Shown: piece after piece, positions 55,874-58,336 of the stretch
Numbering within the stretch: the stretch's first letter is position 1
Layout: every line of letters begins with the position of its first letter
DNA from: Aliarcobacter lanthieri
GTDB lineage: Bacteria > Campylobacterota > Campylobacteria > Campylobacterales > Arcobacteraceae
DNA length: 64,000 nt
Direction of reading: 5' to 3'
Assembly (NCBI RefSeq): GCF_013201625.1
Contig: NZ_CP053839.1
Coordinates: 496,001 to 560,000, forward strand
Made by a program: the position numbers and the translations under genes
Notes under the pieces: model-generated
What the model saw: only the letters and a program-made list of their open reading frames with translations
What the model was told of the DNA's origin: nothing
The model's database searches: none

Positions 55874-57440
55874 TTATTTTAAACCTATAAGTAAATTTTG
55901 TCTCTTTTTTGTCTGATAAAATAGATATTGTAACAAAATTCTTGTCACAAATCTCTTTTACAATTTTTAAACCTAATCCAAATCCTCCACGTGAAGAGTT
56001 TTCTCTATAAAAGTCTTCAAAAATTTTATCTACATCTTCAATGCTTTTTGAATTAGTTGTTACACTAAACTCTATAACTTCATCATCTATATAGAAAAGT
56101 TTTACAAAAATTGGTGAAGAACTAAAAGAATATTTCACAGCATTAGATAGATTGTTATCTATTACTCTTTGAAGTTCAATAGCATTAAACTTGATATATA
56201 CATCATCTTCAATATTTTTTATAAAATATAATGAGTTTGATTTTACAATTTCATCAAAAAACTCTAATCTTCCTTTTAGAATTTCAGAAAAGTTTAAATA
56301 CTCTTTTTCATATATTACTCTATCTTTTTTTATTAAATATGATAAATCATCATAAATATATTGAATTATTTTTGAACCAGATTCAATATTTGTTATATAG
56401 TTATTTGGAGGAACTTTCATTTTAAGTAAGTCAATGTTTGTTCTTATGATTGTTAAAGGAGTATTTATTTCATGAACAGAATTTTTTATAAATTTTTTTT
56501 GTGAATCTACTAAATTTGAAAGTTCTTTTGTTTTCTCTTTAACTTTAAATTCTAAATTTTTATTTAAATCTTCAAGCATTGTAGTTTTAAGTTTAATATT
56601 TGTCATAGCATCATTTGCATAGTTTGCTATAACTTTAAATTCTCCAAAAATAATCCTATTTTGATTTATTGGATTACTATTTTGCTCAGATTCTTTAAAA
56701 TATTTCCCTATCTCTTTTACATCATTTACAATTAAAATAGTTGCATTTTTATAAATAAATATTGAATATAAAATAAGTAAAATTGTTAATGATGTTATTT
56801 GTAGAGTATAGTTAGAAATTTTTTTATTATATTCTTCTTCTTTTTGTTTTATTAATCTATCAATTTCATCCAGATATACACCTTTCCCTACAATCCAATT
56901 CCATTTAGAATATGATTTTACAAATGAAAGTTTATTTCTTTCTTTATGAATTTCTGGTTTTGACCAAAAATAATCAACAAATCCACCATCAGCATTTTTT
57001 GAGGCTTCTATTAATTCTAAAAGAACTTTTTTACCATTAAAATCTTCAAAATTAGAAAAATTTTTACCTATATTTGATTTATCAGTAGTTGCATTATAGA
57101 TTAAAGTTGCGTTTACATCATAAATAAATATATATTCATTTGGATTATTACTTATAGATATTTTTTCTAGAGCTTTTAAAATATCTTTTTTTATCTCATT
57201 GTCAGATTTTTTATATTTATTTTCTTCATAATAGTAATCCATAAATTCTAAAACATAATTTACATAATTTATTAATAAATCTTTTTGATTGTTTGTATAG
57301 TCCTCTTTTAAAGTATGAACTTTTTCTTGTAACTCATCATGAGCATTATTAATAATGATAAATGTAAAAAATGATATAAGAATAACTATAAAAAATATAC
57401 TATATACAATTAAGTGATAAAGACTCTTTGCTTTTAACAT
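55854..57440 (-). CDS. Sensor histidine kinase with single Cache domain
   Basis: 528 residues from ATG 57440 (AAGG upstream). TM1 (about 12-34), a periplasmic sCache_2 domain with KSNIGKNFSNFEDFNGKK and WNWIVGKGVYLDEI, TM2 (about 210-232), a coiled-coil linker, the H-box NSVHEINTPLT with phospho-His at about 323, and an HATPase domain with N-box NNLSNAVKYS and GGFGLGLKIVKE. sCache domains of this kind bind small carboxylates such as acetate or propionate, which matches the transporter and pta-ackA genes that follow. Confidence 0.92.
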   Translation of the reverse strand: MLKAKSLYHLIVYSIFFIVILISFFTFIIINNAHDELQEKVHTLKEDYTNNQKDLLINYVNYVLEFMDYYYEENKYKKSDNEIKKDILKALEKISISNNPNEYIFIYDVNATLIYNATTDKSNIGKNFSNFEDFNGKKVLLELIEASKNADGGFVDYFWSKPEIHKERNKLSFVKSYSKWNWIVGKGVYLDEIDRLIKQKEEEYNKKISNYTLQITSLTILLILYSIFIYKNATILIVNDVKEIGKYFKESEQNSNPINQNRIIFGEFKVIANYANDAMTNIKLKTTMLEDLNKNLEFKVKEKTKELSNLVDSQKKFIKNSVHEINTPLTIIRTNIDLLKMKVPPNNYITNIESGSKIIQYIYDDLSYLIKKDRVIYEKEYLNFSEILKGRLEFFDEIVKSNSLYFIKNIEDDVYIKFNAIELQRVIDNNLSNAVKYSFSSSPIFVKLFYIDDEVIEFSVTTNSKSIEDVDKIFEDFYRENSSRGGFGLGLKIVKEICDKNFVTISILSDKKETKFTYRFKINENTAS

Positions 57441-57510
57441 TTGCAACCTTATGTAAATAAAGTGTAATGATAACTAGATTTTTATAATAAAGAGTTAAAA
57501 TTTATTTAAG

Positions 57511-57587
57511 TGGCGCGGCCGACGAGACTCGAACTCGCGACCTCCTGCGTGACAGGCAGGCATTCTAACCAACTAAACTACGGCCGC
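57511..57587 (-). tRNA. tRNA-Asp (GTC), downstream copy
   Basis: 77 bases including encoded CCA. GCGGCCG acceptor, CTGTCAC anticodon loop, GTTCGAG T-arm. Flanks TTTATTTA (57501-57508) and TAAATAAA (57591-57598) are complementary and can extend the acceptor helix. Confidence 0.97.
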
Positions 57588-57601
57588 ACCTAAATAAACA
57601 A

Positions 57602-57677
57602 TGGTGGTCGATATAAGACTCGAACTTATGACATCTACCTTGTAAGGGTAGCGCTCTACCAACTGAGCTAATCGACC
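57602..57677 (-). tRNA. tRNA-Val (TAC), downstream copy
   Basis: 76 bases with encoded ACCA. Acceptor GGTCGAT pairs with ATCGACC, anticodon loop CTTACAA. Confidence 0.97.
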
Positions 57678-57711
57678 AAAAGAAGGGGATTTAATGTTGT
57701 ACAATTGACCT

Positions 57712-57786
57712 TGGTGACCCCTAGGGGATTCGAACCCCTGTGGCATGGATGAAAACCATGAATCCTAACCGTTAGATGAAGGGGCC
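57712..57786 (-). tRNA. tRNA-Glu (TTC), downstream copy
   Basis: 75 bases with encoded CCA; acceptor GGCCCCT, anticodon loop TTTTCAT. Flanking segments 57696-57704 and 57790-57798 pair over nine positions (one G-U). Confidence 0.97.
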
Positions 57787-57807
57787 AAGTTATACAACAA
57801 TAAAAAG

Positions 57808-57883
57808 TGGTGACCCGTGATGGATTCGAACCATCGGCCTCCTCATTAAAAGTGAGATGCTCTACCGGCTGAGCTAACGAGTC
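57808..57883 (-). tRNA. tRNA-Lys (TTT), downstream copy
   Basis: 76 bases with encoded CCA; acceptor GACTCGT, anticodon loop CTTTTAA. Confidence 0.97.
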
Positions 57884-57903
57884 AAAAGTAAAAAATATTT
57901 AAG

Positions 57904-57980
57904 TGGCGCGGCCGACGAGACTCGAACTCGCGACCTCCTGCGTGACAGGCAGGCATTCTAACCAACTAAACTACGGCCGC
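57904..57980 (-). tRNA. tRNA-Asp (GTC), upstream copy
   Basis: Identical to the copy 393 bases to the left. Flanks TATTTA and TAAATA (57896-57901, 57984-57989) are again complementary. Confidence 0.97.
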
Positions 57981-57994
57981 ACCTAAATAAACAA

Positions 57995-58070
57995 TGGTGG
58001 TCGATATAAGACTCGAACTTATGACATCTACCTTGTAAGGGTAGCGCTCTACCAACTGAGCTAATCGACC
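57995..58070 (-). tRNA. tRNA-Val (TAC), upstream copy
   Basis: Identical to the downstream tRNA-Val; the 14 bases between it and tRNA-Asp are also identical in the two units. Confidence 0.97.
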
Positions 58071-58093
58071 ATTTAAAGTTACATATTTGACCT

Positions 58094-58168
58094 TGGTGAC
58101 CCCTAGGGGATTCGAACCCCTGTGGCATGGATGAAAACCATGAATCCTAACCGTTAGATGAAGGGGCC
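58094..58168 (-). tRNA. tRNA-Glu (TTC), upstream copy
   Basis: Identical tRNA body to the downstream copy, but the flanks differ: GTTACATA (58078-58085) and TATGTAAC (58172-58179) pair perfectly over eight positions. Confidence 0.97.
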
Positions 58169-58189
58169 AAGTATGTAACAATAAAAAAA

Positions 58190-58265
58190 TGGTGACCCGT
58201 GATGGATTCGAACCATCGGCCTCCTCATTAAAAGTGAGATGCTCTACCGGCTGAGCTAACGAGTC
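58190..58265 (-). tRNA. tRNA-Lys (TTT), upstream copy
   Basis: First gene of the tRNA transcript; body identical to the downstream tRNA-Lys. The leader in front contains TTAAGT-AGAAC-ACTTAA. Confidence 0.97.
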
Positions 58266-58307
58266 ATTATAAATATTTTTTAAGTGTTCTACTTAAAATG
58301 GACTGGA

Positions 58308-58336
58308 ATTATAGTGCAATTTATTTTAATTGTCAA
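58308..58336 (-). promoter_or_regulatory. Consensus promoter of the tRNA cluster
   Basis: On the minus strand TTGACA (58336-58331), 17 bases, TATAAT (58313-58308): a perfect sigma-70 promoter. The -35 lies inside the last codons of the cinA-like gene. Transcription would start about 35 bases before tRNA-Lys. Confidence 0.9.

Follow-up and report, generated by a model that had tools for sequence, protein, structure and literature searches.

The sequences on either side of tRNA-Glu in Aliarcobacter are complementary to each other and covary. This property is specific to Glu within its tRNA array, and it recurs in another family of the same order. That selection acts on an RNA helix around tRNA-Glu is well supported. 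The flanks of tRNAs are usually treated as disposable; here, clear structural selection acts on those of one tRNA but not on those of the tRNAs beside it, and this holds across species and, in a different form, for a second family. Leader-trailer helices of rRNAs and of eukaryotic pre-tRNAs are already known, as are inhibitory leader structures of E. coli pre-tRNAs. The covarying bipartite helix centred on tRNA-Glu in Campylobacterales appears to be new, as no report of it was found in the open-licence literature searched, and in Rfam only tRNA reaches the cut-off at the locus, with no match to any other curated family.

Complementary flanks of the two tRNA-Glu copies

The window, a stretch of 64,000 nucleotides from Aliarcobacter lanthieri, carries on its minus strand a tandem tRNA array in which Lys-Glu-Val-Asp is repeated twice (57511..58265; ARAGORN), in an order conserved across the family. 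The array is probably co-transcribed as one polycistronic unit. A perfect sigma-70 promoter, TTGACA-17-TATAAT (58308..58336, minus strand; 12 of 12 matches in the scan), lies ahead of it and reaches into the 3' end of a cinA-like ORF upstream, as seen from the promoter scan and the ORF list, and a sequence scan found no terminator around the array. Between the promoter and the first tRNA-Lys lies a hairpin, TTTTAAGTAGAACACTTAAAA (58278-58298, minus strand), and many relatives have similar hairpins ahead of the array. In the family loci (L062-L128 together with the window), the Lys-Glu-Val-Asp array occurs in one to five tandem repeats, with switches of order to Lys-Val-Glu-Asp and Lys-Glu-Val-Glu-Asp. 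On the plus strand, opposite the last tRNA-Asp (57413-57549), there is a sub-threshold Rfam match to the antisense RNA HPnc0260 (41.2 bits, cut-off 59).

tRNA-Glu(UUC) copy 1, in the second array, encodes its CCA end (57712..57786, minus strand; ARAGORN; Rfam tRNA 54.7 bits), and copy 2, in the first-transcribed array, has an identical body (58094..58168, minus strand; ARAGORN). In copy 1, the leader arm GTTGTATAA (57790..57798), which also lies in the Lys-Glu spacer, is complementary to the trailer arm TTGTACAAC (57696..57704), which also lies in the Glu-Val spacer, with one U-G pair. In copy 2, the leader arm GTTACATA (58172..58179) is complementary to the trailer arm TATGTAAC (58078..58085); the flanks differ from those of copy 1, yet pair. 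All four arms are on the minus strand. Identical tRNA bodies with differing but pairing flanks had been described in an earlier note on this DNA, and re-reading of the minus strand reproduced its sequences and coordinates exactly.

Directly beside the tRNA ends, a second and shorter complementarity forms a proximal clamp. It consists of the leader CTT adjoining the tRNA (57787..57789 in copy 1 and 58169..58171 in copy 2, minus strand) and the trailer AG adjoining CCA (57710..57711 and 58092..58093, minus strand), which are invariant in the genus: the leader ends in CTT and the trailer starts with AG in all 31 Aliarcobacter flank sets counted. The possible clamp pairs are U-1:A76, U-2:A77 and C-3:G78.

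The 25-nt leader and 25-nt trailer of all 49 tRNA genes of the genome were hybridised, with each leader against all other tRNAs' trailers, and vice versa, as the null. The two Glu copies formed the strongest duplexes (-12.3 and -11.6 kcal/mol, z -3.9; copy 1 ranked first and copy 2 second), and none of their cross-pairs with other tRNAs' leaders or trailers was equally good, which bears out the claim that the helix exceeds chance. No other tRNA stood out among the 49 genes. The array member nearest to Glu, tRNA-Asp of the second array, reached -7.9, with about 11% of cross-pairs equally good. As the Glu copies alone stand out, a leader/trailer helix as a general property of tRNAs was rejected for this genome. 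The flanks of tRNA-Asp (57511-57587 and 57904-57980) pair too, TTTATTTAGGT with ACTTAAATAAA when A76 is counted. A third tRNA-Glu(UUC) gene (G000:C1:829251-829323, L053) has a very different body (GACCCCGTCGTCTAGTGGCC...GGGGTCGCCA) and the discriminator G, and no leader/trailer pairing was seen around it.

Covariation within the genus and recurrence beyond it

The tRNA-Glu body was matched in 30 of the 31 genomes of the genus, and the exact-match records include A. vandammei, A. vitoriensis and A. cryaerophilus. The body is nearly invariant (100% identical in most Aliarcobacter genomes), and the flanks vary. Since a MAFFT alignment of all 37 distinct flank sets misregistered several rows, the flanks were instead searched for contiguous helices, and registered arms were compared. 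Of the 37 sets, 35 have 7-12 pairs in a helix free of gaps; in the two exceptions, L012 and L014 (one copy each), the pairing is kept but interrupted. The mean contiguous helix over the 37 sets is 8.9 pairs, as compared to 6.0 with shuffled trailers, for which the highest null mean was 6.5. The core arms found in the genus are GTTGCATA/TATGCAAC, GTTATATA/TATATAAC, GTTACATA/TATGTAAC, GTTGTATA/TATACAAC and TTTGTATA/TATACAAA. About 3-11 nt on the leader side and 5-10 nt on the trailer side separate the tRNA from the distal helix, so that in the Aliarcobacter Glu flanks a distal paired region lies beyond a bulge at the mature ends.

The pairing is preserved through changes on both sides. In an alignment of 13 sequences, 98% of the cells are paired and three of the eight pairs show two-sided change; when the partner was slid by 1-3 columns, pairing fell to 18-65% with no two-sided changes. 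When whole 3' arms were re-dealt among the sequences, a test in which some rows sit in a shifted, still paired register, 75% of the cells were paired (maximum 83%), as compared to the 96% observed. Fitch parsimony on a tree of flanking DNA gave 2-4 pair-state changes for most of the variable pairs of each copy (four for pair 4, two to three for pair 5), counts that are approximate because of gene conversion between the copies and that rest on arm states registered by hand, a few of which are non-standard pairs. The flanks thereby show the two marks of leader-trailer helices as a class, namely complementarity beyond chance within the same unit and pairing kept by two-sided changes. No comparable leader/trailer pairing was present for Lys and Val of the same arrays. 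The covariation check on the tRNA-Glu flanks of many related genomes that the earlier note had called for was thus positive over the 37 distinct flank sets, and its proposal of selection on an RNA helix holds, with recurrent two-sided changes in these sets and an analogous helix in another family.

Across the family, a short clamp with covarying sequence is repeatedly found next to the ends of tRNA-Glu. Other members of the family have different sequences in this register, such as CGAT with A-TCG (g18) and AATTGTT with A-ACAATT (L095). We scored the clamp as the contiguous pairs counted outward from U-1:A76 and compared it with re-dealt trailers, using Lys and Val, whose composition is similar to that of the Glu flanks, as internal controls. 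The Glu clamp exceeds the re-dealt trailers with z 8.3 by sequence and z 3.8 with one value per genus over 18 genera. The Asp clamp is weaker (z 6.1 by sequence and 1.9 by genus; the Asp duplex has z 3.3 over genera), and no enrichment was found for the clamps of Lys (z 1.7 by sequence, 0.1 by genus) and Val (z 0.8 and 0.2).

The strong distal duplex is found in the window's family in Aliarcobacter and in genus g35, and most other genera of the family are without a strong distal helix. Across the order, flush pairing of the Glu ends is enriched (z 8.0 at the sequence level). In family f6 of the same order, tRNA-Glu is either monocistronic or the first of two Glu genes, and its 5' arm is located 6-8 nt downstream of TATAAT, where transcription is predicted to start. 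The complementary arms in f6 are ACAAG/CTTGT, TACAAGT/ACTTGTA, ATTAAGTT/AACTTAAT, ACCAAAAC/GTTTTGGT and CCGAAAC/GTTTCGG. The mean f6 helix is 6.05 pairs, as compared to 4.82 with re-dealt trailers (null maximum 5.63), and the duplex energy is -6.9, as compared to -4.5 (lowest null -6.2). The idea that the helix is unique to Aliarcobacter was rejected, given the comparable helices in g35 and f6.

Among the 35 tRNAs of one f6 genome, Glu is third by leader/trailer pairing. An 8-bp leader/trailer helix, TTTCAGGA/TCCTGAAA, was also observed around a tRNA-Pro(UGG) of this family (L197, genome G125). Given this rank and the tRNA-Pro helix, the f6 helix is not confined to Glu, and other tRNAs of f6 may carry similar ones. 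Genome G125 also has a tRNA-Glu that ends in GCCA, close to genes for Lys, Val and Asp, and the order may have two coexisting classes of tRNA-Glu.

Possible roles of the helix in tRNA maturation

As a role for the helix, we tentatively favour a gate that holds back RNase P and 3' trimming on pre-tRNA-Glu, a plausible reading that draws on analogy with E. coli. The flanks of pre-tRNA-Glu would comprise the clamp (leader CUU with A76-A-G), an internal loop and the distal helix of 7-12 bp. We infer that this helix forms in the cell, where it would hold Glu as a closed unit within the Lys-Glu-Val-Asp precursor. Together, helix and clamp would mask both the CCA end and the site of RNase P cleavage, making Glu a slow, late substrate of RNase P. 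Val and Asp would be cut first; 3' trimming would then erode the trailer arm, so that the helix opens; and RNase P would act last, freeing the Glu 5' end and releasing Lys. The RNase P RNA of the window genome is of type A.

In E. coli, the kcat/Km of RNase P is about 13-fold lower when the leader pairs with the 3' RCCA (PMC9433436), and a review describes a stable stem-loop near the start of the valVW leader that slows RNase P about 10-fold and enforces a 3'-to-5' order (PMC10731613). These effects lend support to the gate. They also favour inhibition or ordering of RNase P over the role that the earlier note had proposed, a stem that guides RNase P, RNase III or 3'-end cleavage. As the clamp would pair A76 and the trailer, not the discriminator and CC as in E. 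coli, the size of the effect may differ. That most other genera of the family are devoid of the strong distal helix also weighs against the gate. CUUGG/CCAAG pairing, which engages C74C75 with G1G2 in a register unlike the E. coli RCCA case, is predicted in many sequences, and by this folding model it would hide the CCA end and the cleavage site.

The layout has counterparts elsewhere. Eukaryotic pre-tRNAs commonly have a bulge at the mature ends and, beyond it, a helix; where leader and trailer pair extensively, RNase P is inhibited in its 5' cleavage (PMC9705548). The Glu flanks share the unpaired or bulged nucleotides at the tRNA ends followed by a leader/trailer helix. In contrast to the eukaryotic case, however, the Glu helix is bacterial, has the CCA encoded in the bulge, involves neither a Pol III U-tail nor La protein, and in the window genome belongs to one tRNA species inside a polycistronic array. 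With the RNase P anti-determinants of E. coli, it would share leader pairing near the RNase P site and the CCA end within a polycistronic precursor; in the cases described there, the leader finds its partner in RCCA or in its own sequence (PMC9433436, PMC10731613), whereas the Glu leader would pair with the trailer and A76 and, in addition, has a distinct distal helix that covaries. As in bacterial pre-rRNA helices, complementary flanks would close one RNA unit in a polycistronic transcript, with covariation support, but the pre-rRNA helix has 25-40 bp and contains an RNase III site for 16S rRNA (PMC10250234), while the Glu helix has 7-12 bp, encloses a single tRNA and has no known nuclease.

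Among the other explanations, a possibility beyond those of the earlier note is that the helix insulates Glu from the neighbouring tRNA-Lys in Aliarcobacter: by closing the Glu domain, it would block pairing of the acceptor strands of the two tRNAs, Lys 5' GACCC with Glu 3' GGGGUC and Lys GAGGGGGCC with Glu 5' GGCCCCUUC, which would become a pseudoknot once the helix is closed. With the leader arm forced single-stranded and the sequence unchanged, the predicted native Lys pairing dropped from 0.84 to 0.51 over 41 Aliarcobacter arrays through a Lys-Glu hybrid, and from 0.75 to 0.32 where Lys starts with GACCCG; shuffling either arm gave the same drop, and the excess of leader:trailer pairing is larger in the Lys-Glu-Val than in the Val-Glu-Asp order. 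However, no effect was predicted in the helix-bearing g34 and g35 (0.83 and 0.83), other genera have the same Lys/Glu complementarity without the helix, and equilibrium folding ignores that Lys is transcribed, and possibly folded, first. Moreover, the f6 helices are not explained by insulation, because no tRNA lies upstream of them. We consider insulation doubtful as the main role, and about equally doubtful as an additional one in Aliarcobacter. It is rather improbable that the stem serves, as in rRNA, as a substrate for RNase III or another double-strand endonuclease, which would cut both strands and separate the Lys, Glu and Val precursors. The window genome does have RNase III (a 240-aa frame, 248 bits), with no match to RNase E/G, the arms sit exactly in the two spacers flanking Glu, and RNase III of Staphylococcus aureus affects tRNA precursors in rRNA operons (PMC3386247). 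Nevertheless, at 7-12 contiguous, AU-rich pairs, with an internal loop before the acceptor stem, the stem is short for this enzyme and below the length of rRNA-type helices, as the bacterial 16S leader-trailer helix requires >17 bp and works in the absence of RNase III as well (PMC10250234). This comparison speaks against guidance of RNase III in particular, and no comparable stem was found in the Lys, Val and Asp spacers.

On general reasoning, leader-trailer pairing brings the acceptor strands together, and the joined ends might thereby help the Glu tRNA to fold into its own cloverleaf. The body alone is predicted to fold into the cloverleaf with an acceptor pairing of 0.98, however, and the predicted acceptor pairing is 0.47 with intact flanks as compared to 0.78 with a shuffled leader, a reduction that in many cases comes from the CUUGG/CCAAG pairing. 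As the helix lowers the predicted pairing that it would have to promote, this very improbable role was rejected. We give the least credence to an inverted repeat at the DNA level (a protein site or a relic of a mobile element) or to chance. Two-sided changes preserve inverted repeats in DNA as well, and G-U pairs are few, but within the operon the repeats occur only around Glu, in a fixed relation to the tRNA ends and with invariant CTT and AG; they recur with unrelated sequences at the predicted transcript 5' end in f6, and a U-G pair is present in window copy 1 and in L029. Chance pairing is excluded by the duplex rank among the 49 tRNAs and by the shuffled-trailer, alignment and re-dealt-arm tests. 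Of the three ideas of gating, insulation and RNase III cleavage, the gate alone covers both the arrays and the monocistronic genes without a longer helix than that observed, and is favoured for this reason.

Extended to the order, the gate leads to a broader and, in our view, unlikely scheme, in which Campylobacterales would use a dedicated helix to set the order and rate of tRNA-Glu maturation and, in Aliarcobacter, also to block pairing with Lys. Control over how much Glu-tRNA reaches translation and tetrapyrrole synthesis would then lie in processing, not in transcription. The matched helices of different sequence around an identical tRNA constitute a natural test set for leader/trailer control of RNase P, which bears on polycistronic tRNA processing in bacteria without RNase E.

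Predicted alternative pairings of the tRNA-Glu 5' end

In the fold of lowest predicted energy, both window copies lose part of their acceptor stem. This counts against the gate, although it may reflect an error in the energy model. In both copies (57700-57789 and 58082-58171), the Glu 5' end UUGGCC can pair with the trailer GGUCAA as an alternative to the acceptor stem, continuing the distal helix. That Glu 5' GGCC and trailer GGUC, predicted to pair in these copies, form a conserved alternative was rejected, because the trailers vary after AG.
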